From contig NC_092572.1 in NCBI RefSeq assembly GCF_037975245.1, forward strand, positions 2,765,501-2,829,500: a DNA stretch of 64,000 nt. The letters run 5' to 3'. Shown piece after piece: positions 4,049-52,400 of the stretch (positions are counted from its first letter, which is position 1; each line of letters opens with the position of its first letter). A model generated the notes under the pieces. That model was not told where the DNA came from and did not search any database. It saw only the letters and a program-made list of their open reading frames with translations. The position numbers and the translations under genes were made by a program. This DNA comes from Apostichopus japonicus. Taxonomy: Eukaryota; Echinodermata; Holothuroidea; Aspidochirotida; Stichopodidae.

Positions 4049-5651
4049 TCAATTTCAATTTCAATTTCTTTATTCCAGTATAAATGATAACATTTATAAA
4101 TAGGACACATAAAAGAAGTGATACATAAAAGACGTAAACATGTACAAAAATGAAAGCATGAACAAAAACAAGAAATAAGATAGAGGAATAGAAGTTTTAA
4201 AAGATTAAAGATTAAAAGGATTATAACAGAGATTCTAAGAACCCATTTTGAATATAAATGGCTGCTCTGCAGATAAATGAGTTCTTAAATAGCATAATTC
4301 TAAAAGATGGCAAGATAGTAGGATTACGTAGATTGTACTTGCTGGTTCTATTGCACAGAGAGATCAACTCGGAGTCAAGTGGGTGATCTTTAGAACTATG
4401 TATATTCTTAGCTAGTCTTATGAATTCATTTTTAGCAGCAGTGTTTACTTTACCAACAAGGCTTTCATAGTCGAGATTAAATATTTTGGAGCAGTATTTC
4501 AAGAAACTTCTAATTCTTTTCTTGTCCTTTTCAAGTAGAAAGTGATACCAGACAGGAACTGCATACACAATCACTGGCAGAATTGATGAGCTGAAAACCT
4601 TATCTCTTACATTAGAATGAAAATAAGGAGTAATATATGCCAACGTTGATACAATATAATACACCTTAGACATCGATTTAGATATATGTTTAGTAAAGGT
4701 TAACTTGGCGTCAATATCAACTCCTAAGTACATTGTATGAGACACCCGCTCAACAATGGAGCCTTGAACATAAGTTTTCTGATCCCTGGTCTGATGAATG
4801 AGACCTTGATGTTTACTGTTAATGTTTTCAAAAATTATTCCTTTAGATTTCTTTGGATTAAGTAAGAGGTTCTTCTGCTCACACAAATTGACCATATTAT
4901 CAATACAGTATTTATAGTCATTTTGATTTTCAAGGTGTGTCCGCTTTGAAATGTTACAGGATATGGCTGTATCATCAGCGTACTTAATTACATCACACCC
5001 CATTGAAGAACGTATATCATCTGTGTATATTGTAAAAAGTAACGCAGATAGAGGACCTCCCTGGGGGACTCCCACTGTAATATTTGATTCCTCTGAATAA
5101 CCTTTCTGTAGCTTGACTTGTCGAGACCATCCTTGTAAAAAATTAGCCAACCAATGTATAAGCCAAGGCTCATTGATAAAACTACACAAACTTTGGATTA
5201 ACCGATTTGGTAAAACCGTATTAAAAGCATTTGAAAAATCTAAGAATAAAACTTTAGTGACTGTTGTGTCACTCTGATTTAAACCAGAAACAACACAATG
5301 TACGAGCTTGAGTATAGCATCTGTGCAGGACACGCCTTTTTTGTAGGCAAACTGATTTTTATCACCGTGTGATACGATGGCCTGTGTCAAGTATGGAAAT
5401 AATAATTTTTGCATACAGTTAAAACCAATGTTGGACATGTCAATTGGTCTAAAATCGTTTACAGATGTTGGAATAGAGATTTTAGGCACAGGTGATGTTT
5501 TAGCATGCTTCCATAGGGACGGAATTGAATTCTCATTTAAACTTACATTATATAAATTAGTGAATATGCCAGCTAATTCTTCAGAGCAATACTTGTACAC
5601 CCACCAGGGAATTTGATCAAAACCAGACGCAATTCCTATCTTAACAAGTCG
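4049..5651 (-). mobile_element. 5'-truncated CR1-like non-LTR retrotransposon (LINE)
   Basis: On the minus strand the element starts inside its reverse transcriptase reading frame near 5651. It ends after a polyadenylation-like AATAAAG with a short AAATTG-type microsatellite tail (4049-4070), typical of CR1-group LINEs. It is inserted in the right terminal inverted repeat of the element at 3302-5664, whose sequence resumes directly at both sides. A GAGTC/AAGTC similarity at the borders may be a short target duplication. Confidence 0.85.
4221..5648 (-). pseudogene. LINE reverse transcriptase, 5'-truncated ORF
   Basis: An open frame of about 475 codons encodes the RT fingers-palm-thumb region of a non-LTR retrotransposon. 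The frame continues upstream of the first in-frame GTG (5600) to about 5648, where IGIASGFDQIPWW is readable. NDFRPI, FLDFSNAFNTVLP (motif A), GVPQGGPLSALLF (motif B) and IKYADDTAIS (catalytic YADD) follow in order, then a C-terminal tail ending FLESLL. The endonuclease and ORF1 are missing, so it cannot mobilise by itself, although the RT frame has no stop. The CR1/Rex/Daphne group is likely but the clade was not tested. Confidence 0.92.
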
Positions 5652-19585: not shown

Positions 19586-19586
19586 T

Positions 19587-20115
19587 CGCGCGTATGGCAA
19601 GCCATTTTACTTTTTATTCAGTATTTAATGATATCAACAATTATTTAATGATATCAAAAATTATTTAATGATATCATGAATTATTTCATGATATCTGAAA
19701 TTGTTTTAATGATATGTACGTCATATTTGATGATATCATTAATTGGTGCAAGGTAATTATTGATATCATTATTTTATTTGATGATATCATAATTAAAATT
19801 TCTGATATCAAGAATTGAATTTGTGATATCTTAAAATAGATGAACTATTATAGATATCAACAATTCAATTCAAGATATCATAAATTCAATTTCAGATATC
19901 TGTATTTAAATTAATGATATCATCAAATATGACGTACATATCACGAATTCGGCCATATTTAATGATATCATAAATTCCAATTAATGATATCATCAAATAT
20001 GACGTACATATCACGAATTCGGCCATATTTAATGATATCATAAATTCCAATTAATGATATCATCAAATATGACGTACATATCACGAATTCGGCCATATTT
20101 AATGATATCATCAAT
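19587..20115. repeat. left terminal inverted array of GATATC dyads
   Basis: After the 17-bp terminus come more than a dozen GATATC hexamers, usually set in TTAATGATATCATTAA-like dyads. The first four are exactly 20 bp apart (6 + 14), others 20-22 bp. From 19915 three 70-bp units repeat in tandem, each with ATGACGTACATATCACGAAT and GGCCATATTT. The array matches that at 36449-37166 in inverse orientation in style and terminus. Confidence 0.85.
19915..20112. repeat. three tandem 70-bp units in the left array
   Basis: TCAAATATGACGTACATATC begins at about 19923, 19993 and 20063, a period of 70. Units are nearly identical; the third runs out into the ATCATCAATTAC border. Confidence 0.9.
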
Positions 20116-20239
20116 TACGCCCTCAGTATGAGCGCCTGGGACTATGTGGCGGCAAGTACAATTCAGTGCGGGTAGTGCATTATATTGATGCAGTGCGTGT
20201 GTAAGTGATTTATTAAGTTCGACAAGATTTTTTCCAATA

Positions 20240-23200
20240 ATGACGACAGGAAATACGGCCAGAATCAGAAATCTAGTTGAAACAGCCAGAAGTGCTATTA
20301 ACGAAAATAATCACGACACAGAAGATGTCGATCAAGAAGACTTCGCATCCGTCGTGTCAGCAACTTTTCGAGACTTTAGACGAAGACGTCAACCTGACTT
20401 GCGTAAGTTAGTAGTGCCGCCTAACGATAGGCTATATCGTAGAAGATAGGGTAGGTCACATGCGCTCGTAACGTTAGGCTTATTTATATTTCTAGTATTA
20501 GTATTAGGCCTACGCCTAGGCTAATACTATACTTCATATGGATTATGCCAAAACGTCCCCGTGCTATATATATCTAGGCCTACATAACCAAAACTTCCCG
20601 GGGGTATATATATTTTTTTATAAGCAGAAAGTATGTGGAATGATACTTGAAAGTCACATACAAATGTGGAAAAAGAAAGAGTTTAAATTTTAGTAACGAA
20701 TTTCGGGGTTAGGCTGGCTGGTTAAAAAATAGAATTTCAATAATGGATGTAGGCTATTGTATAAATTTGTAGTAACATTGTCAATCGGGGGAAAATAGAA
20801 AATATCACGTATCAACATTCAGAGTTATGCTGGCTGGTTAAAGAGATATATTTTCAATAATGGATGTATTGTAAAATTTTATCAATATATGTGTCAATCG
20901 GGGAAAATGAAAAGAGTTTTAGTAACGAATGTCGGCGTCATTCAGGTTAAGGCTGGCTGGTTAAAGAAATAGAAGTCAAGTAACGGATGTACTGTAGTAT
21001 AAATGTCTTTAAAATTTATAGCAATATACAATGGCCAAGAAGTTTATGGTGTGGAGAAACCTCTCTCGATTTTAACACCATCGGTTTCAACACTCCGCTT
21101 CGAGAAAGTGTTGAAACCAGTGGTGTTGAAACCACAGCGGCAAGTGTTGAAACCACCGTGGCAGGTGTTGAGACATGAAGTGTTGAAACGTGAATTGTTG
21201 AAACCACACGTGTTGAAACATGTAGTGTTGAACTATACCAACTTGTACTTAAATGTCACTAAAATGCATGGTACTTGCCAATAACTTAGCCCAGCCTACA
21301 TGTTTCACAGCCACATTACCTTTTTTGAATTAAAGGAAACTACGAACATTCTAATCATTATTTTACTTGTGAAATATTGCATGCAAACAGTCAAAATTAT
21401 TAGTTTGGTACGGTAACGTTCTGACAAAGGGAACAAGGGGAGATGTTGACCACTGGGGCTTTCGCCTAGAGTAGAGGCACAGTTGTAGTGGAGTGTAAAA
21501 AATGTCACGTGAGGGTGACGTCATCATTCAATATTCCTGGTAATGTGCCCAGTCTAGTATGTGACTGTGCCTTCAAAGTCTTAGTGCATTTTGCAGGAAT
21601 CACTCAACATTTGTGTTTTTTCTGTTTTGTTTTTTACCTACTACCTAAATTTTTACATGGTTCTGCAAAAGATTTTTTTCAGACTGACTAGACTCACTTC
21701 TTGGGCATGGAAAATTTGTAATCATGATAAATGAATATTCAACTTTGCCATTTGCACAGAATTTATTGATATGAGTAGGTTAATAATATGACCCTGGCCT
21801 ACGTAACTTTCTGTCTGTTCAAGTGATCAAATGAACAATGATTCCCTGTGTTTAGGTACCATTTAACCAGATGATTCTGTTTTGTGTTTGTAGGTCAAAC
21901 AAAGAGAGGAAGGAAGGCAAGTAGTATCTGGAAGGCAAGGGTTTTTCTATTGAAAAGGTCCAATGTGGATTTTTTGCCTTCAATTGCAGAGTGCAAATAC
22001 CTTGACGACAATGGATATGGTGAGTAATGATATATACCAACTATAATAAACAAACTGACCAACAAATGTAATAATTTATGTAATTTGCTCTTAGTAGCAT
22101 TTGATTGTATTTTTTGGTTCCTTGCTTTAGCAAAAGGAACCTATGTAGTCAACTTGGCATGTTTGTGTCTGTGACACTTGCTTACGTACACGGCAACTCA
22201 ACAAGGGAAAGTTGAACTTAACTCAAACTTGGTATATAGATCCGCCATAGTAAGAGATGTGCCCTATTGTTTTTGGTACCTGTGAAGGTCACCAAAGGTC
22301 AGTTAGGGGCCGAAAACCAAATTAATAAACACAGCAATAACTCCCATTGACAGGGTCCGACATGGTTGATATTTTGGAACTAGTTGTAAATATGTTAAGG
22401 GATCATGTCCAAACATAACCATCAAGTGATCCAAGGTCAATTAGGGGACAAAATGTCTGTTGATGTTGGGAGTTGCGCTATTGTAATCCAATAGTCGACC
22501 CACATCTGGGTGACTCTTGACCTCTGGTGACCATTACTAGTTTCTTGGGTTATTTGAATTTTTGTGGCCATATTCAGATCTCAATTGGTCTTCCAATCAA
22601 AATTGGCCATAGACCTCTGTGTGACCTTTTTTGTGCGAAGTTATCAGAGGTCAAAGTTTTGTTTTGTATTCTAGTATTAAAGTACTGTTAGGATGGTCAT
22701 ACATACTTTTTTTATTCAGACAGTCTAACTAAATCTGACTAGGAGGTCAAAGATTAAATCTTAAAAATATGCTTATTTTGAGAGATATGGGGCAAAGGAA
22801 AGGGTCAATCTTTTGATATGCTTTGTAAACGGTTAGTAAAATGACCGTAAAAGCACAGCCTTGGAATCTATGCAGTCATGATGACGTATGGGTGACACTG
22901 CTTGTTTAACACCATGGTAAACAGACTTACTGTACAGACATTAGTTTTTTCTGCTTCTTTCAATTTCATACTTGGTATACAAGTTTGCCATAATGAGTTT
23001 CAGATACCTTTTCATTGTGGTAGAGGTCAAACATCATATGAGGTCCACAGAGGTCAAATTACATAGATTTTAAAACCTGGAAAAACTCAACGAATGATTA
23101 CTTCATTTAGTTGTCCGACCTAGTTTTTACTCATCTCGGTACAAAGACTAGTACAACTGTGTACATTCTCATAAAACTAATGAATACTAAAATAAACAAT

Positions 23201-26200
23201 CTTTTTTGTATCGCAACTTTTCAGGGTCACCAAAGAAACAAGATGGTACTGCTACCATCCTGATGGTGAATAGAAGTTGGCCCTTGGAACAATTCAAGCT
23301 CTTTTTGTGTGAACAGTATCCTCAGATGTCCCTTGGTGTTGTTGGTTTTAAATTAGCTAAGTGTGATAAGGGAAAAAAGATCAAAATCCTGGAAACATCA
23401 TCATCTGTAAGAGTCATAGAAAAGGCAGTTGGCAGGGGGAAGCTACTTTTGATTCCAGATCAATACCTTGTAAGTATTAAAAGCATACTACTGGATATTA
23501 TTTATAACACTATATAGAGTACTAGTAATAGGATGTTATTTTCTTGCAGAGATAAGGAACCAAAATAGTTTATTCTGCCAATTGTATTGATAACTGGTAC
23601 AAAGTCAATGTTTTCAGTGAATTTAATTTATACATTGGGTACTGTTTATGGGACAAAATGCAAGATACAGTACCTGCAAGTATAGCAGTTTACCCAAATT
23701 ATTTGAATACAAAGCCTTGAATGCTCATAACTTTGCAAACATATGGCCAATCTTGATGATATTGGCATGTTTGTCACTATCGGTAATTATGACTTTGCGA
23801 GCTTCTGTTTCATTTTAGCGTGTCATCTTCAACACAAAATCTTAACAATATTTGGATAATGTTGCTTAAATGTTAGTTCATATCAAAAGATGCATTCATT
23901 TGATAATGCCGTATTGACGCCAGTCACGCCAGTGCGGCAAGTATAGTCTGACCCCTTTTTAGGTGAAATATTTGAAAATTGGGGTGGGACTTGACATGTC
24001 GGCCGGGTCGGACAAAATTTACCAAGTTTGAAATAGACCCTCAGATGCAGTGATTAAATAGATCATTCAGAAAAAAAAGAATCATTGTGCTTTGTCCTGT
24101 CTACAATTTTACCTTTTCAACTGATGACACAGTTTTTATTTTTATTATTATATTTTATTTTGGAGAATTGCGGCAGTTGAGGAACATAAAAAAATGCAGT
24201 GGGACTTGACTAGGGTGCACGGCTGTTTTCCCAAATTTCCCCAAAACCTATTGGGGGGAGGGGGGGGGGTTATACTCAAAGGTGACACTATATACTCAAG
24301 TCAGTACGGTAATAAAATGCAAGAGTTATGAGAACCAATGATATGCTTAGGGGGATAGTTATAGACAAATATGCCAATAGAAATGTACTTTACATTAAAT
24401 TTGTAACAATAATATATACTGTAAGAGTGGTTTCAAGCCCAGCAACAGTAGCTGTTTGGCTTCTTCAAATGGCTCCTGGTTCCATCAGTGTGCCTATGAA
24501 CCAGGGGTCACTTTCTGAATAAAAATAGTCTCTTGTGTTCTCAATTTTATTTCCATTCACCTGTGCTGGCTAACTCAACACAAGAAATTTGTGATGAATT
24601 CAAATTGGTTGGTAGGTTGGCTACAAAAGGATATAGGATAGGTAAGGGTGCTGTCTCTTTCAAATTGCCCCAGCTTCTAACAACTTACAAGGGATGTGGA
24701 ATTTGGTTCATGAACCAGTCAATACCTGAAAACAAGTGGTCTCATTGACCAAGGTCCTTTTAATTATAATTTCACCATTGATTGTCTTGTTCTTTTTTTC
24801 ATATAGGTATTTCAGCCATCAGATTCTGGAACACCCACCATTGCTTTTCGCAGTCAGAGAGGTATTTTTTATTTCATATTCATTGTTACAGGCAAAAGAA
24901 TTTATATGTTATGCTTAATTAGGAAAAGTGTACAATTAAAAAACAATTGAGAAGCTGAAAGTCATTTGATGTCTGGATGAACTTCATAGAGGTCAATGGC
25001 TAAATTTGTGGTCATATGACGAATTGTGAGAAATTAATGTATTTAAGTTTGAATTTTTGGTAAAGGATCTTTATTTTGACGCTGTTGATTTTGAGGGAGA
25101 TCAAATATCACATGAGGTCAACAGCTGGGTACAAAAGAAAACCAAAAGACTTTGTGATTCCTTGTCATGTAAGGTTAGACATGTCATATCATGGTGTAAA
25201 TATGCTATTATTCTAGTTTACACAACTAACAGCCGAACATACACACCAATTAAGTATGTGATGCATGCAAGGTAGCACATATGTGGCTTAGTAATTGACC
25301 TTTGACCTCTTATCAACTCAAACTATCCACCAAGGTTAACTTGAGTATCATCCCAGTTTGCCCTGAATCTGATGGGTTGGTCTACAAGATTCTCAGTTTC
25401 TTACCGCTGTTGACCTCAAATAGCATTTGAACTGTTGCATAAACAGTGTATGTCTCCTATTTTCTGAGGCCAACCCATAAACAAAGAATGAACCAAATTC
25501 GAGCTATGTGTTTTTCACGTGTTGAACCTTCTCTTTTTAATTTCAGCTGCTTCAGTCCTATCAGTATCATCTCCAGCAAATGATCACCAGTCTGCCGTTG
25601 TTGAAACTCCACTTAATGAGCAGCCCTCTACTAGTGACTATGGTTAGTAGTTAATACAGATACACCTATTTGGAATTTAAACCTGGCTGGATTTCATATA
25701 AAAAATACCCTGCCAGAATTTTTTGCAAAGTTGCAATCATAAAATGTTGTAGTCGCGATCCTAACGTGTTGGAGTGATTACTCCAGTTACTGGGCAGGAA
25801 TCGGGACTCGAGTAGAGTCAATCAACTCGCCCATGCCTGTAGACAATTCAGCTTCAAATACCCTAGTACCGACAGGTAGGGAAGTCTGGGGACCCGGTGC
25901 AAACACTTCTAAGATTCATGTAAACACCATCACTTAGCAAGGTTGAGAATCACATATTTGGTTTGTAGATTCCTCATAATTACATTGTCATCATTTTTGG
26001 TTGAGTTCAAAGGTCATCTGATGTCTCGAGTGGTTAGACACTAAAATATGGTCAAAGAAGCAGTTAAAGTACAAGTATGTAGGCCTATATAAACAATGGA
26101 ATGTATATATATACCAGGAAAAAAAATTCTTCTAAATTTTAAAGTTCTTAAAAGACAGTTACTGACCAATATTATAATTTTTTTCGATACAAATATGTAA

Positions 26201-26570
26201 CATATTTTCAGGATTTACTTAAAAACTTGGCTGAAAACACCACACATAACTATTGATAATAAACAGTTTGAATTTCATTTGCCAAACCAAATTCAACTTT
26301 TTGGAGAATTTGACAGACAAGTGGATGAGAAAACTATATTTAACTCAAATAGCATTTGAACTGTTGCATAAACAATGTATGTCTCCTATTTTCTGAGGCC
26401 AACCCATAAACAAAGAATGAACCAAATTCAAGCTATGTGTTGTTCAAGTGTGAACCTTCTCTTTTTAATTTCAGCTGCTTCAGTCCTATCAGTATCATCT
26501 CCCGCAAATGATCACCAGTCTGCCGTTGTTGAAACTCCACCTAATGAGCAGCCCCTTACCATTGCCGGTG
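20240..26570 (+). CDS. element-borne gene of unknown function, six predicted exons
   Basis: Exons predicted from frame, phase and splice sites: 20240-20402 (MTTGNTARIRNLVE, charged, donor GTAAGT), 21894-22019 (RQTKRGRKASSIWKARVFLL), 23225-23469 (ATILMVNRSWPLEQFKLFLC then VVGFKLAKCDKGKK and GKLLLIPDQYL), 24807-24861, 25547-25642 and 26475-26570. All junctions join in phase. The last two are 96-nt phase-1 cassettes encoding nearly the same peptide (AASVLSVSSPANDHQ). No stop codon or terminal exon was found; sequence after 26580 is repetitive, so the 3' end is lost or missed. The exon 2-3 region recalls the N-terminal half of G2E3/HECT-like proteins common in marine animals, but no HECT domain is present. 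That similarity is an impression. Transcription would start just inside the left array. Confidence 0.6.
21100..21238 (+). repeat. GTGTTGAAACCA minisatellite
   Basis: About ten diverged copies of GTGTTGAAAC(CA) spaced 12-18 bp, preceded by inverted GGTTTCAACAC near 21083. Lies in the first intron of the plus-strand gene. Confidence 0.75.
22116..23110 (+). repeat. hairpin-headed AGGTCA-rich repeat, partial copy
   Basis: Starts with a hairpin (arms GGTTCCTTGCT and AGCAAAAGGAACC at 22116-22141) and continues with phrases shared with 30472-33130: ATAGATCCGCCATA, GTGCCCTATTGTTTTTGG, AGGTCACCAAAGGTCA (22286-22301), GACCTCTGGTGACC. The end is vague. It sits in intron 2 of the plus-strand gene. Confidence 0.7.
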
Positions 26571-26578
26571 GTTAGTAG
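25415..26578 (+). repeat. duplicated exon cassette (two ~235-bp direct repeats)
   Basis: 25415-25650 and 26344-26578 are nearly identical, including about 130 bp of upstream intron, the CTTTTTAATTTCAG acceptor, the 96-nt exon and the G/GTTAGT donor. They differ by scattered substitutions and small indels, mostly upstream and at the exon 3' end (ACTAGTGACTATG versus ACCATTGCCGGTG). Confidence 0.9.
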
Positions 26579-26584
26579 CTAACT

Positions 26585-29523
26585 CTTTTTGCTCATGCTG
26601 GTTTGAGCTATTGTGATGGTGTGGTGTCTATCCGTCTGTCCTTCTTTCCACAATCCCTCAAATTGATTCACAATTGCTCAAATTGATCCTATGCATTCAT
26701 ACTTCGATGGATTTTTATGAAACTTGGACACAGCCATGAAATCACTCAAAATGCTTCCATTCCTACAGATTATATGGTACAGTGTTGAGCATTCAGTGGT
26801 ACTTTGGTAGTGCCTCCTCTGGGTTTTCAGGATTTTGGGGACCAAAGTCACCTTTAGACCATATTAGCCATTTTATGAAATCACTCAAAATGAGACCTTC
26901 CATACTAATGGGCCCTTAAATTTGTTGAGCCATCACTTTCTAGGGGGACATTTTTCTTATGGCCTTTTTTTTTTTGCATCCTAATTTGTGGGGGGCATTG
27001 AAATATTTTGTGGGCCCTCAACACCTTTTGTTAACCTGAAATTTGTGGGCCATACTAAGACTTTGTGGGCCTGACTAAAAATGTTAGCCCTAACTCAGCA
27101 GTGCCAACTTGGATTGATCTCATAATTGGTATGTGGGTAAGCCTTAGTGAGTAAATGTACCCTATTGATTGTGTTATAGGTAAAAGGTCATTTTGGGTCA
27201 TCAGGGGTCAATCATTGATAACCTTTTAACCACATTAACTCAGCAATGCCAGCTTGGATTGATGTTATACTTGGTCTAATGGTTTGGTAACCATTAAAAC
27301 TCAGCAGTACCAACCCGGTCATGTAAAATTTGATTCATTGGTATTCATGAGTGGGCACAGCTTAAATAATATTTTTAACAATTTAGTTTGTAAAGACTAT
27401 ATCTCAAGAAGTTCAACTGTGATGAAGCTCATACTTGATATGTAGGTTCATCTCAGAAAGTACACTCATATTGTTTTTGGTATTGGTGGCATGAATATTA
27501 ATGAGTAGGTAGGCAGGGCTTAGAGTGAATTTGCTCCAACTTCAATAAGATCAATATCTCCATAACTGTCCAATTTTGTTCCAACTTAAGTGTTGTTGTG
27601 GGACACCTAACCCATTACATACGTAAACTTTGATCTCATTGATTGATAATCATGAGATGGTGGAGCTTAAACAATATTTTGACAATTTAGCTTTCAAACA
27701 AGGTCATCTAACCTTTGGATAAATCTCACACTTAAGTTTGCCCATTGGGAGAGTACAACCCTCAATACTTATTTTGTATGAGGTGACATATCATTAAATA
27801 CAATGGCAAGGAGTCATAAAGCCATTGTATTTAATGATTTATTATATATATATTAAAACCATGATGTGTGCATGCCATCAATGCATTTAGGGAGATGGTT
27901 ACTTCGTCCCACTCACCCCAGTACATGCCTGACCTCCCTCATTTTACCTTCAGCATATTAAACATTATTGTGTGATTATGTCTTTCTTTTCATGTTACAT
28001 TATTCACTAGTGCATAGCTTTGGTTATTGAGATCGGACAATTACTTGTCAGGTCATGTCGATGTTTTTTATTGCATATCACCTTGTTAATAATTTGTAAT
28101 GTGGGTGTGCATGCTGTAGATTATTGCTATTATTATTGTAAGGTTTTGCAATCTCTTTCACGTTACATCATTTACTTGTACATAGCTTTGGTCCTTAAGA
28201 TCAGACCATGTCATGTCACTGTTTCTTGTTACATATTATATATTTTTATTAAATATAAACCTCATTTTTACCTTGAGCCTTCCATACATAAACATTTAAT
28301 AATTACAACTTTGCCATGTGTGCACATTAGGTGGAACTTTTTGGGGATGTGACTTTGGGGTTGAAAAAAAGGTCATGTTGCCATTTTCCGTACATATCAC
28401 ATTGTTAATATATGTCCATCATTTCACCTTGAGACTTAATGTTCATTATTGCCAGGGCTTGCCCCCCATTTGCCAGGGCTTGCCCCCCATTTGTGTCACC
28501 ACTTGTTCCATGAGCTTTTTCTCTGAATATCAGAGATTTCTTTTTTAACTGAGAAGTTTCACTTCCCTAAATTTTATATTTTATATATTCTTGTTTGTAT
28601 TTGCTTAGATTAGTACATAACCAAGTGTTTTTTGGGGTACCCTATATATTGAATGGGTATGATTCATTTTACTAACAATTTATCAAAATTCAGCTTTCTT
28701 AGCTTTTTAGGTCACTAGGCTAATTAATGACTGTGTTAATGGAACTAAAAAATCTGGGATGAGATGTTCATTCCACCTTTTGGCTTCAGTATGTGGTACT
28801 CATTACCCTGTCCTGCCTTGGGATGTGGTAGTCATGTGGTAGTCAGTCATTCGGCAATGTCATGTGGTAATGACAACTTGTTTTAGGTCACTTCTTCAGC
28901 TTTCATATGTATTATCTGTTTTCAGAAATGCAAATATATTTTAAATACAAAGATATGTTTCGGAAAAAATAAAGATGAAAAACACAAATATAGTATGATC
29001 ACTTTTGGTTTATTCATGATTCAGTGTGTGATAACCATATTTCAGTATACCATTGTATAAGAATAACACTGAATGAACATCACTGATAATTAATTATGTT
29101 AGTGAATTCTAGGTTGAGCTACATCTTCTATTTCACTTGCAACCATGACACACACAAACAGATGAAATATATAAATACAAACTAATCAGATATCTTTCCT
29201 TTCATGACTGGAAGCTGGATGCTGTGGACATTTTGTTTTGATAACCACGGGCTGCAAGAGGCACACATACCAGCAAAATATGAAACGGGTGATACATATC
29301 TGTTGAAACCTTGCCGGTGTCTTGAGGAATGTACGCAATCAAGCTGGCATGTGGGTTGCTGGTAGTGAGGTAATGAACCGTAATTTTAGGGGTTAAATTC
29401 AGAAAACCCCTTGTAACCAGGCTAACTCAATCTGATTTTGTTAGAGGTCATGAGGTCAAAAACTGGTAGCATTTTAACCACAACAAATAATATACAACAA
29501 TAATGTAATTGCAAAGGGTCTTT
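26585..29523. other. repeat-rich space between the convergent genes
   Basis: 26590-27500 resembles a dispersed repeat also seen at 50610-51250 (GCTCATGCTGG..GAGCTATTGT, TGAAACTTGGACACA). 28446-28491 has two tandem 22-bp copies of GCCAGGGCTTGCCCCCCATTT. No further exon of either gene was recognised, so the 3' end of the plus-strand gene is unresolved. Confidence 0.45.
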
Positions 29524-30274
29524 CTAGTTATTTTCAAGCATCTCTTTCAAGATTGTAGCACACTTAATATACTTTTCTTTACGCCCTTGAGTATTTGAAA
29601 TTTCCTCTCTTAGATGCAAAATTTGTTCTTCGCTAATCTCAAAGGGTGGAGAATTGTTCATTCCTCTATTACCACTGTTAGGTCCCACAATAAGTGGTAC
29701 GCTTTCCTCAATCCTGCTCTCCAGAGAGTGCTGATTCTCAAATAGCTCATTTATGGCAGTGTGAGAGGAGTCAGCCTTTTTCAAAACACCTTCAAACCAT
29801 AACTGTTCAGGGGTTCTGTGATTTTCTGTACGAATTGCATGACAATTCCATCCCTTTCTGAAGGAATCCAGGTGTTCATTGATAATGGGTAAATAAACCA
29901 ACTGTACAGAAAACTTCTCTACTGGGTTAGCTACATCAAGCATCAAGTCATCCTCAAGACTGTACAACTCTTCATAAAAGAGGGAAGTTACATCCTTGTG
30001 TACATCCCTCCAAAGACGTTCAATACGCTCATTATGAACAGATTCTCCAGTTAGGTGGCTCCCACGGCTTAGTCCACGCAGAGAGTTCATAAGCAAGGCA
30101 ACATCTATGTTTTCTCCACCGTAGTCACTGCGCACTCTTGATGGCACCCCATAATCCTTGATAGCATTTACGAAATGCCCAAGAACAGTGTTGGCATCAC
30201 AAACCGTCTCACAAGCTAGATACGGAACTAATCTTGAAAATCCATCAATACATCCATGTGTGTGGAATCCCCAT
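29524..30274 (-). CDS. catalytic exon of the integrase
   Basis: The last exon (250 codons with stop) follows acceptor CATATAG. It holds the second catalytic Asp (VRSDYGGEN, about residue 47 of the exon) and the catalytic Glu (HNERIERLWRDV), then a conserved-looking INEHLDSFRKGWNCHAIRTE region and a charged tail ending in TAA. Reading upstream of the first internal ATG is required, because the conserved GFHTHGCIDGFSR and ANTVLGHFVNAIKDYG segments lie there. Confidence 0.88.
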
Positions 30275-33200
30275 CTATATGTAATATTAATAGGAAATAT
30301 AAGGGCATAAAACTTATTGGCTGTATAACATTACAGAATTTGCCCAATTGAAATATGACTACCACTAAAACAATTGTACACTTGTGATCAGTCAAATTCA
30401 ACTGGTATGAACTAGTATAGTAATTTGATCAAATTTAAAGTTCCCAAGGAACCATTCTCAAACCTATTTTTGGTTCCTTGCTTTAGCAAAAGGAACCTAT
30501 GCAGTCAGGTTGGCGTATGTGTGTGTGTATGTGTGTGTGTGTGTGTGTGTGTGCGTCTGTGACACTTGCTTGGGTACGCTCTATCTCACTAAGGGAAAGT
30601 TGGATTGAGGCCAAACTTGGACTATAGATCCGCCATATGGAGAAGGTGTGCCCTATTGTTTTTGGTGCCCACAAAGGTCACCAAAGGTCAGTTATGGTCC
30701 AAAAACCGAAAATATTAAAACTGCAATAACTCCCAGTGCCAATGTGCGACAAGATTGATATTTTGGGACATTTTGTGAACTGGTTAGGGGAGCATTTTCA
30801 AACTTAACGGTCATGTGATCCGAGGTCACCAAAGGTCAATTAATGATAAAAAACTAGTATTTTTGCAATAACTTGAGAACGAAATGTCTGTTAGGGTTGG
30901 GAGTTGCCTCAATGTAATCCAATTGTCGACCCGCATCTGGGTGACCCTTGACCTAAATTTGACCTCTGGTGACCTTTTCGTGTTTTGGGGATTTTTACAG
31001 TTTCGATGCTATTTTCAGATGTCAAAGGTACCTTCTGATCATAAATGTCAATAGGTTGACCCCGTGTGACCTTTATGTGCGAAGTTATATGGGGTCAAAG
31101 TTTTTCGGTCGGAGTTAGGATGGTTGTACAGACTTTTCGTTTTGTTTTTTGGAATCAGGAGATTAAACTACATCTGAAACCAAGGTCAAAAGGTCAAAGG
31201 TCACATTAGAAAAAATGTGCTTATTTTGGGAGGAAACGAGCAAAAAAGAAAATGTTTGGTTTTGATGCTAGATTTGGATATCAAAGGTACCTTCCGATCA
31301 AAAATGTCAATTGGTTGACACCCGTGTGACCTTCGTGTGTGAAGTTATACGAGGTCAAAGTTAATTTTCAGACATTTAATGCAACAACTCAGTTCCAAGG
31401 TGTGACATGGTTGATATTTTTGGACAAGTTGCAAATGGTATAGGGGAATATTTTCAAACTTAACGGTCATGTGATCCGAGGTCACCAAAGGTCAATTAAT
31501 GTCAAAAAAGTAGTATTTTGGGGGTAGAAAATGGGCAAAGAAAAAAATGTTTGAATTTTTATAGTTTGATGCTCTAATTTAGGTCTCATCAATCAAAAAT
31601 GTCAATAAGTTGACCCAAGGTGACCTTTGTATGTTAAGTTATATGAGGTCAAAGTTAATTTTCAGACATTTAGTGTAATAACTCCCAGTGCCAAGGTATT
31701 ACACAGTTGATATTTTGAGACAAGTAGCAAATGGTATAGGGAAATATTTTCAAACTTAACGGTCATGTGATCCGAGGTCACCAAAGGTCAATTAATGATA
31801 AAAAACTAGTATTTTTGCGATAACTTGAGAACAAATTGTCCGTTAGGGTTGGGAGTTGCTTCAATGTAATCCAATTGTCGACCCTCATCTGGGTGACCCT
31901 TGACCTCAATTTGACCTCTGGTGACCTTTTCAATGTTTTGTGGATTTTTACAGTTTCGATGCAATTTTCAGATGTTAAAGGTAACTTCTGATCATAAATG
32001 TCAATGGGTTGACCCTGTGTGACCTTTGGTGCGAAGTTATATGAGGTCAAAGTTAATTTTCAGACATTTAAATGCAATAACTCCCAGTTCCAAGGTGTGA
32101 CAAGGTTGATATTTTTGGAGTAGTTGCAAATGGTATAGGGGAATATTTTCAAACTTAACGGTCATGTGATCCGAGGTCACCAAAGGTCAATTAATGATAA
32201 AAAACTAGTATTTTTGCTATAACTTGAGAACAAATTGTCCGTTAGAGTTGGGAGTTGCTTCAATGTAATCCAATTGTCGACCCGCATCTGGGTGACCCTT
32301 GACCTCAATTTGACCTCTGGTGACCTTTTCGTGTTTTGTGGATTTTTTTACAGTTTCGATGCTATTTTCAGATGTCAAAGGTACCTTCTGATCATAAATG
32401 TCAATAAGTTGACCCCTGTGTGACCTTCGTGTGCGAAGTTATTTGAGGTCAAAGTTAATTTTCAGACATTTAATGCAATAACTCCCAGTGACAAGGTTGA
32501 TTTTATTGGACAAGTTGCAAATGGTATAGGGGAATATTTTCAAACTTAACGGTCATGTGATCCAAGGTCACCAAAGGTCAGCTAATGTTAAAAAAGTAGT
32601 ATTATGGGGAGAAAATGGGCAAAGAAAAAATGTTTGAATTTTTACAGTCATGCTCTATTTAGGTCTCACCGATCAAAAATGTCAATTGGTTGACCTCCGG
32701 GTGACCTTTGTGTGTGAAGTTACAAACAAGTTCAAAGTTAATTTTTTGACATTTAATGCAATTAAATCTCAATGCCAAGGTGTGACATGGTTGATATTTT
32801 GGGACAAGTTGTGCATGGGGTGGTGGAACATTTTGAAACTTAAAGGTCATGTCATCTGAGGTCACCATTGTTATCATATCTGTTGACACGCTTGTAGGTC
32901 TCTTATATTTCTTACATTTTCGACGCCATATTTAGATCTCAAAAGTGCCTTTGATAAAAAAATCTGATCACATTTTGTGATCACAAAAGTGTTGGCTATA
33001 GTGTTGGTTACTTTATGGGAACATGTAGGACCACAGTTACTTGGACTATTTGAGCCCAATCTTGCTTGATAATATTATGTGTATTGTCATATACCCCAAG
33101 CAAGGAACCACAGTGCCCTTGGGCTCTTGTTATTGTTTCATTTCTGCAAGGCTAGCTGATTAGTTGCTTCCACATACAAATGTGGTCAAGTACTTTCCAT

Positions 33201-36200
33201 AGGTAGATTGGAGGTGATGATAGGTTTATGGGACAGGGCAGCTCCAATATAGGGTTCATTGTCTCACTAAGGCCAACAACACATGAGTATGAAATCAATT
33301 AAAGTTTGCATTGTCTCATTATGGCAGTTACATGGTTTTGAGTACTTGACACCTGTTGACCTCACATAAACTTTGACCTCTAATATAAGTCATATACAGT
33401 AGGATCTTTTCTCTATAAACCTACCAATTATGAGATCAATTTAAGTTGGCATTGCTGAGTTATGGTAGTTTCAAGGTTTTCAATGTTCTCTCTCGTGTTG
33501 ACAGTTAGGTTTATTGACCCCCTGGCAGCGCCACTGAGCATTTGTGTTCTAGTTACAATTTATTAATTACTTAAATTAACTCTACCTCACTAACTTCTGG
33601 TGGGCATCGATGTGCCATAAACTGTTGGTACAAGGAACACTGTAAGTGCGGCGAGCTACAGCTGCACCCCACCTTCTTCCAGTCCCAACTGGATCAACTG
33701 TGCGTAGCAAATCTCTAACCTTCTTTCTGGGAACCACAATACCATTTGCCTTCAAATAGCCCATCATCATCTGAAAAGATAACTGATATATATTAGAATT
33801 GGCAGCTTCACAAACTGGTGAATCCAGTGTCACCTGAAAACATACAAAGTTCTTCAAGTGAAACTGTAAATAGTTCTACAACAATCCCACCTTTACACAA
33901 AGCATGAAAAATAAGAAAGGAAAAAATATACATACTAGGTTATCTTACCCACAAGCTGTCAAATACACCCATAAACATGTAATGCACATATCATTTCAAT
34001 GTCCCACACCCTATATATTGACAAGTTGCATCATTAAACGACCTAAGTCACCCAAGTGATGTATTTTGACACACCCCTGAGTCACACAATTGACTTGCAT
34101 CTTGTTTCAAAATGAGTGTACCTGTGTCACAAAGGTGAGTGACATATTAGTAACTGTTTTTGTTGGTAAAAGTTTGGTGAAATGACTCACCCCTCAGTCA
34201 CAACTTTGACAACTAGATGACTGACATCTCAAGTAAAATGAGCACATGTGAGTCACAATTTAGTTTGCAATGACGCACCGTTGACTCACCTTGTACGGGG
34301 TATAGGGGGTAGGACATTCAATTGATAGGTGCATAAGCCACATTGCCCATTAATTACCTCATACAGTTATTTTACTGAACATTGGAATTAAATGTACTGT
34401 ACCTGTGCACCACTATTTGGATGCTGATTATGAAGTCTGCTCACCCAGGTTCTTAATTCTTCCTCACTAATATTAGAGTACCTGTCTCTCATCTTGAGAT
34501 TATTTTCAAGGCATAGTTTATTAATAGTCGATGTAGAACATCTGAAGAGCTTTGCCATTTGTTTAGAAGTGAACCCTTTATAAAAGAGTTTCTTAAGTTG
34601 CTCAACAGGAATGAGTACTTTTGGTCTTCCTCGATTGCCTGCATTAAAAAAGAAATATATAACAAACATTTTTGAAACAAAATTAATTATAATTTATATA
34701 ACACTGGAGATCATGAAAATTGTAATGGTTCCTTCAGAAGGAAAAAAACGACTAAGAATTTTGAGACACATGTCACATACTGTTCCAATTAAAAAAAGAG
34801 AAGCCAATGGCTTTGTGATTCCTTGCCTTTGAATTTAAACCTTTTCTGAATAACTGAAGATTATTTTGAAATGATATTTGACCAAAATTAGTACTGAGGG
34901 CAGTCATGGATTCCTTGATATTTGGAGCGGCTAGAGCAGTGGCTCCCAACCTTTTGGACTCCCTGTACCCCTAATTGTTTTACGCTATATATATCCTAGT
35001 ACCCCTTTGCCCACCATAAGCATCTGATTATATACACCACTACTTTTTTTTTTTAAATTGTCCAAGAGGCTTCCAATGTACCCCCTGTAGTGTTCGCTGG
35101 TACCCCCATGGTGTACTAGTACCCCCGGTTGGGAACCAAGGGGATAGAGGGATAGAGGGCTGCTGACAGCAGCATCTGCACTACCACGACTCTGCAGAGA
35201 GGTGGAGTTGGTTTGATGTGTGCTCTTTGTCCACTGGTGTAACCAAACGCTTTTATCTAGTGGGACAGAAGGGGGGGGGGGGCTATGGAGGGGGTGTCTT
35301 CCTTCCCTTATAATTTGTTATGGAAGACCATGGAATTTCTATTTTTAAGAAATAAAACAATATAAAGTATTTCATCTCATCATTGATGTCACATAACACT
35401 CATGCATATATATTGGCACCCAACACAGATTGGCTGATTGTTAAAGTCAGGAGGAGGAGGCCTAACACTATAAATATTTTAGTATATTTGCCCGCAATGG
35501 GTATAGCCTACATATAAAGGGGAAAAAAGAGGTCAGATATCCTACAATCCTAGCTAGGCCTACTTTGGTTCTATAACTCTAATTTAGGAGCCCAACTAAA
35601 TGAACCATCACGTATGCCTTGACTAGCCACCGGCTGTGGCATAGGCTAGGGGGTATTCTGGAGTTGTGATTAAGAGGTCATGTAATTTTAATTCATGTTT
35701 ATTAATTTTAATTCATAGGCTAAACTATGAGTATCAGCATAATACCCGGCCCCGTCATTTTGATAGTGATCGTGTGTAAGTGTTTTGATTATTGATACAC
35801 TTCTGTAAGTAGATCAGTGAAGCGTGACGTTTTGAGAACGACGAAACCTGATGGGGCAGTGTATCCTGCAGTTGTCCCAAACTAAATAAACCATCATGTA
35901 TGCCTAGGTTAGTCTACAGTATTAACAAGTAACATCACATAAGTTAGTCCTAACAAGTTAGGCTAGCCTAGGCAGTGTTAATGCTACAGTCACAGTTATG
36001 CTTAACACCATACCAACCTGATAGCATGCGTTCTGCTCCAGTACTTAATCCATTGCCGTGTTGTGTTGAAATAATGTTAGGCCCATTAGTTCCCATTAGT
36101 TCAGCATCGCAGATGGAGAGGAGTTCGTCAATTGGCATCATTATAGCTTCGAATTTATTTGGGTCAAGTGTACCTGAAACCCTTCGTAAATTAACACTGG

Positions 36201-36318
36201 CGTGTTGCAGGCGTCTTTTAGCTTCTTCTGCATTGTTGTTTTCAGTTAATAGCCTTAAAACTTCCGTTAATATTCGAGAAATTCTGTCAAGAACTGGTTG
36301 AGCTTCAATCCCCGCCAT
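29524..36318 (-). CDS. DDE integrase/transposase, four exons, about 490 aa
   Basis: Exons on the minus strand: 36318-36018 (from MAGIEAQPVLDRISRILTEV, helical; 100 codons + 1 nt), 34638-34403 (GRPKVLIPVEQLKKLF and TSKQMAKLFRCSTSTINKLC, helix-turn-helix), 33770-33586 (MMGYLKANGIVVPRKKVRD then NSLWHIDAHQKLV) and 30274-29524 (GFHTHGCIDGFSR, VRSDYGGENIDV, SVHNERIERLWRDV, INEHLDSFRKGWN). All junctions are GT-AG and keep phase 1/0/2. The rve-type catalytic triad is readable: D in WHIDAH, D in RSDYGG and E in HNERIERLW. No stop or frameshift was seen, so it could be functional. The long third intron (30275-33585) is filled by a repeat. The ATG lies about 130 bp inside the right array, so transcription probably starts there. 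Family: integrase-core proteins widespread in animal genomes (IS3EU-like, tentative). Confidence 0.85.
30472..33130 (+). repeat. hairpin-headed AGGTCA-rich repeat, full-length-like copy (2.7 kb)
   Basis: 5' hairpin GGTTCCTTGCT/AGCAAAAGGAACC (30472-30497), a GT microsatellite (about 30518-30552), several diverged copies of a roughly 300-650-bp internal unit (AACTCCCAGTGCCAA, GTCATGTGATCCGAGG, GTCGACCCGCATCTGGGTGA), and a 3' end CAAGGAACCACAGTGCCCTT with GGGCTCTTGTTAT. No coding. It occupies intron 3 of the integrase gene. Homologous to 42692-44816. Confidence 0.85.
34937..35141. mobile_element. short hAT MITE, TSD 7 of 8
   Basis: The left end CAGTGGCTCCCAACC and right end GGTTGGGAACCAAG are inverted. 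GGCTAGAG (34929-34936) and GGATAGAG (35142-35149) flank it. The interior has repeated GTACCCC phrases. It is in intron 1 of the integrase gene. Confidence 0.75.
35142..36017. other. rest of integrase intron 1
   Basis: A hAT-end-like phrase (CACTGGTGTAACCAAACGC, 35230-35248) followed by a G run, then AT-rich sequence with GCCTAGG palindromes. No coding seen. Confidence 0.35.
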
Positions 36319-36448
36319 ATTAAGAGCAAGTTTACGTATTGAGCCTACCGTATAACTAGTGTAATGTATACTGCACTGCACTAGACCCATACCAACTACC
36401 ACCAGCTTAGTTCCATGAGTTACGCCGTATAACCAGACACATCGCAGC

Positions 36449-37166
36449 CATATTTAATGATATCATTAAAGATGGCCGAATTCTTGATATGTACGTCATC
36501 TTTGTTGATATCATTAATTCGAATTAGTGATATGTACATATCATTAATTCGAATTAGTGATATCAGTAAATATGACGTCATATTTGATGATATCATTAAT
36601 TCGAATTAATGATATGTACATATCACTAATTCGTATTAATGATATCAGTAAATATGACGTCATATTTGTTGATATCATTAAATCGAATTAGTGATATGTA
36701 CATATCATTAATTCCAATTAATGATATCAGTAAATATGACGTCATATTTGATGATATCATTAATTCGAATTGATGATATGTACATATCAAGAATTCGAAT
36801 TAGTGATATGTACATTCATTAATTCGAATTAGTGATATCAGTAAATATGACGTCATATTTGTTGATATCATTAAATCGAATAAGTGATATGTACATATCA
36901 CTAATTCGAATTAGTGATATGTACATATCACAAATTGATTGATTGATATCTTTAAATCATTTCTTGATATCACTAATTCATTTCATGATATCATTAAATG
37001 AATTATTGATATCAAGAAATGAACCGAATTAATGATATCATTAATTGATTTAATGATATCAACAATTCGAATTCTTGATATCAACAATTGATTTAATGAT
37101 ATCATCAAATAATTAAAGATATCATTAAATATTGAATAAAAAGTAAAACGGCTTGCCATACGCGCG
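36449..37166. repeat. right terminal inverted array of GATATC dyads
   Basis: Some 700 bp of GATATC and GATATGTACATATC palindromes about 20-22 bp apart, with at least four TATGACGTCATA palindromes. The 16-bp palindrome TGATATGTACATATCA recurs. It ends in TGAATAAAAAGT and GGCTTGCCATACGCGCG, the complement of the left terminus. Confidence 0.87.
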
Positions 37167-37260
37167 ACATGTGCGCAGTGTTAAGCATGGGGGATTTTCG
37201 AAGTTTTACTCTTTAAGTGTAAGAATGAAAGGATCGAGCATGAACTATTTATGCAGTTAA

Positions 37261-38041
37261 CTGGGATGGCATCATGAGAGGTTCAAGCAGTTCTTAAGGT
37301 TTGTTTGTCCAACTTTGGACAATGAAGATGTGATCTACTGGGGAAGCAAAACGAGTAAACATCGACTGATTGATACTGAACAGCTACTTAATGAATCGTC
37401 ATATGAATTTCATGATGCAGGAGATGAAGAGAAAGATTTAATTCAAAACAGTTCATATAAAATGACAGTGCAAAATGAACTTTTGTTAATTTTTATGAAG
37501 TTACGAACCGTGGCAAAAAATCTGGACCTTGCAGAACGCTTCAACATTTCTAACAGTACAGTGTCAAACAAAATAATAACATGGATAAATCTACTGTACG
37601 TAGCACTGGGAACACTGAACATTTGGCCACACAGAGACAAAATCATCCAAAAGTGACCTAAGGAATTTCAAGAAAAATATAAAGACACGGTCATAACCAT
37701 AGATGCCACTGAACTAACTGTCCAAGTGCCAAGTTCACTTCAGAAACAGAGTGAGTGCTACAGCAACTATAAGCACCACACTACGCTACCACGTTGTTGC
37801 CTCCGATCCAGTTCGAAATCTTTACTGGTCACTCCTCCTGTATGCACTAAGTCATACGGCTCTCGCTCGTTTCAGTTCTCTTCCGCTGTCCTCTGGAATG
37901 ACTTATCGATCGAAGTTAAAGAAGCTCAGTCAGTAACCAGTTTCAAATCTCTCTTAAAGACTCACCTGTTTTCCTGTTTGTAGTTTTCTGTCCTTCAGCG
38001 CATAGAGACTTAAGTGTGTATTTGCGCTTTATAAGAACTGT

Positions 38042-38099
<58 letters not shown>

Positions 38100-38529
38100 G
38101 CTAAAGTCATTGATTGGTGTAGACCCAATGGGTGGCGTGATGTTTGTTTTGCAACTTTTCGAAGGGTCAATAAGCCATAAAGAAATAGTAAAGCGAAGTG
38201 GGTTTCTCACTGTTTTAAAATTGAAACTCGAATGTGGAGAAATCCTGCCAGGGGACGGTATCATGGCAGATCGGGGTTTTAATATTGGAGAAGACCTTCA
38301 AGAACTTGCCTTAAAACTAAATGTTCCCCCCTTCCTGAGGGAAAATAGTTGCTTCAGTGAAAATGACATCATACGAGCTCAGTCTGTGGCACAACATCGA
38401 ATCCATGTAGAAAGAGCCATTGGACAAGTCAAAAGGTTCAGAATCCATGTATTCATGTTTGGAACTATAAACAAAATTTGGACAGTAGCTTGTTTGATTT
38501 TCAAACTTCCAGAATCCTGTTATTTCTGA
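37261..38529 (+). pseudogene. IS5-like DDE_Tnp_4 transposase (ISL2EU/IS4EU type), broken
   Basis: The frame from about 37267 reads HHERFKQFLRFVCPTLDNED, then ERFNISNSTVSNKIITWINL (HTH_Tnp_4-like) and IWPHRDKIIQK, where an in-frame TGA (37654-37656) breaks it. It continues DTVITIDATEL (first catalytic Asp), SECYSNYKHHT, is interrupted by a LINE tail (37789-38097), then resumes LIGVDPMGGVMF, GDGIMADRGFNIGEDL (second Asp) and HRIHVERAIGQVKRFRIH (Glu), ending at 38529. Pseudogene because of the stop and the insertion. Its terminal repeats were not identified, and it begins only about 100 bp outside the 17.6-kb element. Confidence 0.87.
37789..38097 (+). mobile_element. LINE 3'-end fragment with ATT tail
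   Basis: Encodes the C-terminal tail of an L2/CR1-type LINE ORF2 (SRSFQFSSAVLWNDLSIEV, SLLKTHLFSCL stop) followed by a short 3' UTR and an ATT microsatellite (38044-38097). ACGCTA occurs at both borders (37783-37788 and 38098-38103). Removing the insert plus one copy restores the transposase frame, reading HHTTLKSLIGVDP. Confidence 0.88.
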
Positions 38530-49464: not shown

Positions 49465-52400
49465 ATGTGGGATCATCGCAGAATGGCATGGGCAATATAC
49501 TGGATTATTATAGGTGAGTGAAGTACTCTTTAATGTATTGTGAACAGTATAGGTTACCTACAACTGCTAGACATTTGAAAATAGGATGGTTCTAGTTTTG
49601 GCAGCAGTGTTTGATTTTGTGTGACTTTTGGATCATTCTGTACTCACTGTGGCAGTCATATTTTGTTTGGTTTTGATATTTATGTAGCTTTCATTATTGC
49701 CTTGTTATAGTGAACAATATTGTTGTGCAATCTCTGTCTGTGTGATCAATATAATCAGATGTTTGTTGATAACAGTAGTTCACTTTGTACCTATATCTGT
49801 TCATGGACTCAGGATGTTTCATGTTGACCTGTTGCTGTTCTGAAATAAAGAGAGAAATGGTCAAACTGTGGTGACTTAAGACTTTGTATGTGAACAATTG
49901 ACAAAACTATATACTTTTTCTGTAATGTGCGAACATTACTATTACAGTCTGTCAATATCATACAAACCTAGCTGTCTATTGTTTCAGGCTGTAGGCTTAA
50001 AACAGATATGTAGCCATTGTAGAAGTTTTTTAGAAACAAAATTAAAATACAAATTATTTTGCATGTTAAATTATCTTATTAACATGCTAATTATGGTTAT
50101 TAGTGTTGCTTTATGTTTTGTTTTTTTTCTCCATCACGCAGGGTCACTTGTTCAGGCACAGGGGTTCAGTACTATAGTTGTTAAGGAAGGGGAAGATGCA
50201 ATAATAGAATGTGGGTTACAGACTACAGTGGAAGAAGGTAACCTGAGATGGGAAGCAATAACAAATGATACTACTGTAGTCTTAGCATATGATCTCAGAG
50301 GCGGATTTTCTAGCTGCGATGACAGAATTGTCAATTGTACTATACATGCCAATGGTAGTATCCAACTGGAGTCTGTTGGCAAGGAAGATGGTGCCACATA
50401 TTACCGTTGCCTTAGAGGAGATGAACATGGGTTCAACTATTACTCTGATCACAGGCTCTTAGTTTTGTCAAAAGGTTTGTAGTCACTGGTTGTATGCATT
50501 CCACCATAAATGATAACAGATGTCCAAATCTAGGACAGTTTGAGGTTTGACAGCAGTGTTTGATTTCAAGTGACTGTTGGATCGTTCTTGCACACTGTGG
50601 CTGTCATTTTTTAGCTCATACCAGCATGCTGGTGTGAGCTATTGTTACAGTGCGGCGTCTATCTCTCTATCACTCTATCACTCTATCCGTCAACAATTGG
50701 TAAAACCGCTCCCACTCGCACAGTGTTTGATGGAATTTCATGAAACTTGGACACAAGGACCATTGGGTATAGGGCCATCAGAGATGGTCCAAAATTTGGG
50801 GTCAAAGGTCACCTGTGGGCCGTAATGGGTCATTTTGTGGAAATACTCAAAATGCTTCTTCTCCTACAGATTCCATGGTACAATATTGAGGGTTTGTCAC
50901 GACAGTACTATGGTAGTTTTACCTTCTGGGTGTTCATGAATTTGAGATCAAAGATCAACTAGGGGTTTTTTGTGGCCCGGGCCGCGGCCCTATATTTTCA
51001 AATTGCTCCTGTTCGTACAGTGTATGGCCAATTATAATGAAAGTTTGTCACAATGTTCCTCGGGATGAGAGTTACGAGGGGTGTTCGGAAAATTGAGGTC
51101 AAATGTCATTTAGGGCGTCATCGGGGGTCATTCTTTGTAATATTTTCAAATATCTCAATCTCCTCAAGATTTTGATGGATCATATTCAAAGTTGAAATGA
51201 TGATTGTTGGATTGTGTATGAATAAGGTGATGCCTAAAAATTTTTGGTCAAAAGTTAATTAATTACAGTTAATCCCCATTGTTTAAAAAAATCTGAGCCT
51301 TCACTTTTTGCCAAAGCTCCTTTAATTTGTCTCCCAGTCTCTGCAGTGTTTGTTTACAGTTGTGGTTAAGCTCTGCAGAGGCTGTTAGTGGAATTATAAA
51401 GCAGGACTGGGAGTTGTTATTAACTGTTGAACTGTAAGCATGAGAGCCCTATAGCCAATCAGCACTTGCCGATTCTTAGAAGTCTTTGAGCCTGAGGTAT
51501 GTAGGCAGCTTGTGAAGTTATGTCTTGTAGGGAGTGCTTGTTATGTCTGCTAAGGTAGAGGGGAGAAAGTTTAATAGGGTAAGTCAGTGGTATTGTTTAA
51601 GAGAGTGGGTAAAGTATGATTTAAAGGGGAAAATAGGAATTATAGCCAGTGGTGTGGCCAGGATTCTGCTAATGGAGGGGGGTGGGGGGTATCCCTCACA
51701 GGCCCAAAATTGGTTTTGTGGGCCCTACATTTTTCAGCTGGAAAAGGTATGAGCTTCTGCACCATTGGTGCTCTAGTTATTAGGTTGTGATTGTTATACA
51801 GTAATGTAGCTCTCATTAAGGCCTTGTTAGTGAACATCATTGGTGTGCAATCTCTGTGTGTGTGATCAATATGATCAGATATTTGCTCAGTAGTTCATTT
51901 ACCGTTGCGAAGAGTAGATGAACATGGGTACTACTAATATTCTGATCATAGGCTCTTAGTTTTGTCAAAAGGTTTGTAGTCACTTGTTGTTAAAATTATA
52001 CATGCATTTTCACGATAAATGCTTACACACAGATGTCTAACTCTTGTCTTTTAGTTTTGACAGGCTCTGACCAATCTCATTATTATAGTGAAGTACATGC
52101 TAAATCATTTTATAAAGAATTTGAGCTGAATCTCATTCTCCATATGAGGATTTCATAATGAGATCACCACAGCTATTTTTTGTTAGTGAAACAGATAACT
52201 ATTTGTGGATAGTTCCTATTCTTCTTTCTTGTTGCTTTAGGGAAAACGTCTTCTCCCCCATCAATTGAAACACCTCACAGAGAGTCAGTAAGTGCCTATA
52301 ACATGGGTAAGAAGGGTGTGCTACATGGCTTCAATGCTCCAGTCTGTGAAGATGATGTGGATGGGAACCTCCCAGTAGTCTGCTATCCACCGTCTGGTAT

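Follow-up and report, generated by a model that had tools for sequence, protein, structure and literature searches.

Transposons of the IS3EU/GingerRoot class are described as having TA..TA ends, usually 6-bp target-site duplications, and an IS3/IS481-like DDE transposase without the integrase zinc-binding (HHCC) domain (PMC10045372). Fungal members end in TAYGG..CCRTA, are flanked by 6-bp duplications and carry TET/JBP genes proposed to escape methylation silencing; in the TET-positive elements an alpha-kinase gene lies opposite the transposase, with the TET/JBP gene between them (PMC12730594). A further relative is Styx of Zymoseptoria, which has an IS3EU-related transposase, extra genes and mobile degenerate copies, and was searched for with 6-bp duplications (PMC10853768). 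Here we analyse a stretch of 64,000 nucleotides from the sea cucumber Apostichopus japonicus (assembly GCF_037975245.1, NC_092572.1, positions 2,765,501 to 2,829,500; hereafter the window), in which positions 19593-37160 are a whole transposon of 17,568 bp, TATGGCAAGCC...GGCTTGCCATA. This element is a genuine cut-and-paste transposon of the IS3EU class, although the copy is damaged. We consider it very probable that it represents a subfamily whose ends contain phased GATATC arrays, in which the DDE transposase is paired with a convergent HECT ligase gene.

The initial annotation had named IS3EU as the nearest class and had held that the size, gene content and ends matched no known element. The first point was borne out and the second was not: the class can be named as IS3EU/GingerRoot because the TA..TA ends, the 6-bp duplications and the PF24764 transposase fit the published description, and TATGG..CCATA termini are found in the window copy and in the two relatives described below (element B and a distant lineage). 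The elements described here differ from the published ones in their size (17.6-26 kb), in the phased GATATC arrays of one subfamily and in the convergent HECT ligase gene. The fungal TET-positive elements have an alpha-kinase where a HECT ligase stands here, and Styx is only 7,927 bp long, with four reading frames (transposase, GATA, CCHC and DUF3577). In the accessible text, the word HECT was not found in PMC10045372, neither HECT nor ubiquitin in PMC12730594, and ubiquitin was not found in PMC10853768. Our literature search found no published account of a HECT gene in IS3EU elements; Repbase, which may hold entries, and subscription papers were outside that search. The class is already known, and the HECT partner is what appears to be new. 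The features of the locus are as follows.

19587-19592, no strand: left target-site duplication, CGCGCG
19593-37160, no strand: whole transposon, 17,568 bp, from terminal repeats, end matches and empty sites
19593-20117, plus strand: left arm, terminal inverted repeat and GATATC palindrome array with 18 sites, from repeat comparison, motif counts and spacing
20240-26570, plus strand: partner gene, front part only, exons 20240-20402, 21894-22019, 23225-23469, 24807-24861, 25547-25642 and 26475-26570, from exon boundaries and homology to the partner in element B
26571-27090, no strand: most likely interval of the HECT deletion junction, from the nearest relative on C17
29524-36318, minus strand: transposase gene, 511 aa, exons 36318-36018, 34638-34403, 33833-33586 and 30274-29524, from splicing and PF24764
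36447-37160, minus strand: right arm, terminal inverted repeat and GATATC / GATATGTACATATC array with 19 GATATC sites, from the same analyses as the left arm
37161-37166, no strand: right target-site duplication, CGCGCG, from window motif search and empty sites
37167-38529, plus strand: right flank, part of the repeated sequence hosting the insertion, extent not defined, from a DDE_Tnp_4 (Harbinger-like) open reading frame (ORF) at 38035-38529 and the empty sites

The inverted ends were found where the initial annotation had placed them: 19586-19656 and 37097-37167 are 92% complementary over 71 nt, a span that includes the 6-bp duplication. The outer limits given in that annotation lay 6 bp too far out. 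Within the window, TATGGCAAGCC and GGCTTGCCATA match solely at 19593 and 37150, and CGCGCG occurs three times. We queried the genome with the joined flanks of the window element (520 nt); the best element-free site covers all 520 nt at 92% identity. None of the nine paralogous junctions fetched contains the element; eight hold a single CGCGCG and the ninth AGCGCG. Because the empty sites hold one copy, the outer CGCGCG is a 6-bp target-site duplication; its assignment to the termini is ruled out by the empty sites and by the varied 6-mers at other copies, across which the target consensus is CGNCCG-like. One of the nine paralogues has a small deletion close to the junction, and the left flank of the window has 8 bp extra relative to all nine. 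Given the DDE_Tnp_4 frame in the right flank, the transposon probably inserted into a repeated Harbinger-like element.

The phased arrays noted in the initial annotation are equally real. GATATC occurs 37 times in the 1,259 bp of the arms and 14 times in the remainder of the 64 kb, and all 30 window occurrences of TGATATCA lie within the arms. Phasing is clearest on the left, where 11 of 17 gaps measure 20-22 bp; on the right it is mixed, with 7 of 18 gaps in that range and others of 30, 52 and 81 bp.

The minus-strand gene had been called an apparently intact DDE integrase, and its spliced frame of 511 aa indeed has GT-AG introns, no internal stops and, in a Pfam scan, a match to PF24764 (rva_4, integrase core) at E 5.7e-82. 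The same scan did not find the HHCC domain at E up to 0.1, and gave a sub-threshold match only for the helix-turn-helix (HTH) region. The catalytic residues, assigned by eye from known motifs, are likely to be D255, D312 and E347, with 56 and 34 residues in between; the first of them lies inside the distance of 100-300 residues from the N-terminus that serves as a criterion for IS3EU/GingerRoot. The closest relative found is a broken copy on C17, 93% identical in nucleotides. In three close pairs of transposase exons the ratio of nonsynonymous to synonymous substitution rates was 0.26, 0.36 and 0.49, and three distant pairs were saturated; among the remaining pairs, one has one synonymous and no amino-acid change, one has no synonymous and three amino-acid changes, and two are identical. 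No relatives of the transposase were confirmed among viral contigs. Because its transposase frame is still open, the window copy may be a candidate transposase source.

The second gene converges on the transposase gene and, like it, bears introns, as initially described; it is truncated in the window, and none of its six exons has a Pfam match. Its nature became apparent from a full-length relative, element B (C17:6325041-6345475; 20,435 bp; target duplication CTCCCG), which has a near-perfect terminal repeat of ~280 bp, arrays of the same kind and both genes. The transposase cores of B and the window are 51% identical, and window partner exons 1-3 are 40%, 52% and 58% identical in amino acids to the B partner, in which they are followed by a further 364-aa frame with a HECT domain (32.6 bits against a Pfam cut-off of 23.9). 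This frame aligns weakly to the HECT domains of E6AP and HUWE1, the active-site cysteine region included, where AHTCSNTLEI in B stands opposite SHTCFNVLLL in E6AP, single stretches being weak. On sequence grounds, then, the partner is a HECT E3 ubiquitin-ligase gene of which the window copy holds the front only, and its earlier treatment as a gene of unidentified kind is superseded. Fish and cnidarian proteins annotated as 'G2/M phase-specific E3 ubiquitin-protein ligase-like' presumably resemble it.

When the window was searched by tblastn with the B HECT frame, no HECT was found; the best match had an E of 0.26 and fell outside the element. The broken nearest relative on C17 has an ordered match to window 27090-30248 and a broken HECT on the expected, upstream side; the window copy has therefore most likely lost its HECT exon. 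The last two window partner exons form a tandem duplicate with an intron edge (25410-25654 and 26339-26582, 92-95% identical).

Among the places listed there are at least four B-type copies of 20.4-26.0 kb. Those on C16 and C17 have identical transposase frames and are both 100% identical to the HECT query, yet their duplications differ (CGCCCG and CTCCCG), so B has moved recently. Two B-type copies on C12 have flanks in common and resemble a single insertion that was duplicated. The 26.0-kb copy at C12:27815550-27841581 contains the partner third exon twice, 5.3 kb apart, and a 20.8-kb copy with the same flanks lies 0.33 Mb away.

The genome-wide distribution of the two genes shows how regularly they are paired. 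We counted a locus as paired when a HECT match was convergent with PF24764 within 20 kb; 150 of 224 PF24764 candidates were scored, so that locus counts are lower bounds. A search with the Pfam HECT model, which is independent of B, gave 96 rows and 58 loci, of which 34 were paired, at distances of 1.3-15 kb (median 3.8), and none stood near PF24764 in any other orientation. Random placement, with the C17 loci of a transposon-rich block kept within that block, produced 0.6 pairs on average and never more than 4 in 2000 runs. With the B HECT frame we obtained 46 matches at 38 loci, 22 of them convergent within 20 kb of PF24764 and 15 far from it. The partner third exon had 14 matches, with a convergent PF24764, by eye, at every locus but one (at one locus 37 kb distant). 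The exception is C17:16121189-16121405, with two third-exon rows. Identity to B declines together in transposase and ligase (Spearman 0.92 over 16 loci, the copies being non-independent). By these counts elements of this type regularly include the predicted ligase gene, and the element is a single two-gene DNA transposon, as the initial annotation had supposed. Its view of the partner as integral stands; its "undescribed" was incomplete, the partner being a HECT ligase gene that has lost its HECT exon in the window copy.

At C17:16121189-16140705 a partner third exon 76-79% identical to that of the window is followed 19 kb downstream, on the same strand, by a HECT piece with no PF24764 locus within 20 kb; this would be a relict whose transposase was lost or not scored. 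C17 (37.2 of 671.6 Mb) holds 35 of the 83 PF24764 loci, mainly at 15.4-25.5 Mb, a block rich in old transposons and perhaps low in recombination.

Short, non-autonomous copies have the same arms. The left arm gave 238 matches in the 40 places scored out of 561 candidates. Arm loci were read at 29 places besides the window element itself (L002-L030): at 21 the two ends stand close together, and at eight one or both ends are unmatched within 3 mismatches in the stretch read. Neither of the signs that the initial annotation had proposed against a single element was seen, be it arms occurring independently or the two genes in unrelated settings without arms. The 6-bp duplication is exact in 19 of the 21 two-ended short copies, with one mismatch in one and two in another. 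L011 and L012, both with exact duplications, share flanks and are probably one insertion that was duplicated. In a sample of ten copies of 3.1-26.0 kb the duplication is exact in every one, and a 27-base terminus pattern allowing at most 1 mismatch occurs 211 times (0 for the same pattern read backwards). Copies of 9.1, 3.1 and 1.5 kb (C15:25606372, C1:19272299 and L027 on C14) have nearly the same flanks, which suggests that a single site within a repeated target was hit more than once.

A distant lineage extends the pairing further. It has complete ends (TATGGTTGGCC..), lengths of 18,357-18,675 bp and both genes, and the 6-bp duplications are exact in three of three copies; relative to B, the ligase is 28-30% and the transposase 36% identical.

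Several observations weigh against the interpretation of the element as an array-ended transposon with a HECT ligase of its own. The B ligase scores modestly as a HECT protein, with coverage mainly of the C-terminal part, and its best whole-sequence match among solved structures has an E of 5.4e-5. Pfam HECT loci far from PF24764 number 24 of 58; 15 of these 24 span >1 kb and have the appearance of normal host genes with several exons. One B-HECT locus lies near PF24764 without being convergent. The partner is also not always present: 49 of 83 PF24764 loci, that of the window included, lack a convergent Pfam HECT at up to 20 kb (42 of 83 when the Pfam and B-derived searches are combined), and individual copies therefore do without it, many PF24764 rows being short or interrupted by stops. 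Finally, GATATC was not seen in ~1.4 kb inside the transposase-side end of two distant-lineage copies. The arrays are therefore not general, and either the two-gene module is probably older than they are or the distant lineage has lost them.

In the mechanism we propose, the DDE transposase would bind the terminal repeats and its HTH region perhaps the GATATC arrays as well, as putative binding sites; in the relative B, the second transposase exon matches a resolvase-type helix-turn-helix (25.5 bits against a cut-off of 23.8). The transposase would then cut the element out and integrate it elsewhere, duplicating the CG-rich 6-bp target (CGNCCG-like). The ligase would serve the transposon, either tuning transposase level or removing host proteins that restrain it. 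The alpha-kinase opposite the transposase in fungal TET-positive elements (PMC12730594) suggests that elements of this class habitually hold a second enzyme in this position. As a whole, we put at not quite an even chance the proposal that a DDE transposase and its own HECT ligase form a two-enzyme module that has stayed together across deep divergence and makes up over half of the HECT loci found in the genome, with the ligase controlling the transposase or host restraint proteins and an alpha-kinase filling the slot in fungal relatives.

The HECT gene could instead be a passenger, a captured host gene without a role in transposition. The many transposase copies without a nearby HECT would agree with this, as would the spread of short derivatives with room for neither gene, and in fungi a passive transfer of TET genes from one transposon family to another has been described (PMC12730594). 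Against it, every one of the 34 Pfam HECT loci near a transposase is in convergent orientation, over lineages in which ligase identity to B is only 25-30%, and the two proteins diverge together. Such long retention in a single orientation would hardly be expected of a random passenger, and we regard this explanation as unlikely. Less doubtful, although still short of an even chance, is that the ligase is a counter-defence factor marking host silencing proteins for degradation and not a regulator of the transposase. HECT enzymes pass ubiquitin on to substrates, which would suit such a function. The fungal TET/JBP genes, with their proposed escape from methylation silencing, offer an analogy (PMC12730594). 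On the other side, the N-terminal part of the ligase has no Pfam match above cut-off in the window exons or the B proteins scanned, and the single-sequence model of its third-exon domain is of low confidence (pLDDT 59.7).

Two further explanations concern the element itself, and to both we give almost no credence. One is that two unrelated elements happen to be nested, with the arms belonging to one only, and younger repeats do sit inside it (by eye at about 22114-22925 and 30470-33135). In B and in the distant lineage, however, matching ends enclose both genes, the empty sites span the exact junction, and the full-length copies together with these sites refute the nested arrangement. A self-synthesising, Polinton/Maverick-like element would share the size of 17-20 kb, the 6-bp duplications and an integrase-core protein. 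The only ORFs of at least 150 aa inside the window element are two transposase exons, and inspection by eye, without a profile search, of B ORFs of at least 60 aa picked out neither a polymerase nor a capsid gene, four B proteins having been Pfam-scanned. The IS3EU/GingerRoot assignment with a HECT partner is supported by the ends, duplications and empty sites, by short derivatives with the same ends, and by transposase-HECT pairing in diverged lineages. If it is correct, a ligase kept next to the transposase would tie transposition directly to protein degradation and open a way to test how these elements evade or adjust control by the host. Transposon ligases would also explain the large number of HECT loci in this genome, and HECT family counts in such genomes could largely reflect transposon genes.

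The two internal repeats of the window element lie in introns of both genes, are related and share their 30-odd first bases (TTTTTGGTTCCTTGCTTTAGCAAAAGGAACC); the second holds internal repeat units. Elsewhere in the window, a reverse-transcriptase ORF lies on the minus strand at 4221-5651 (RVT_1, E 2.8e-25), and a plus-strand ORF at 49880-50482 has a sub-threshold V-set-like match.

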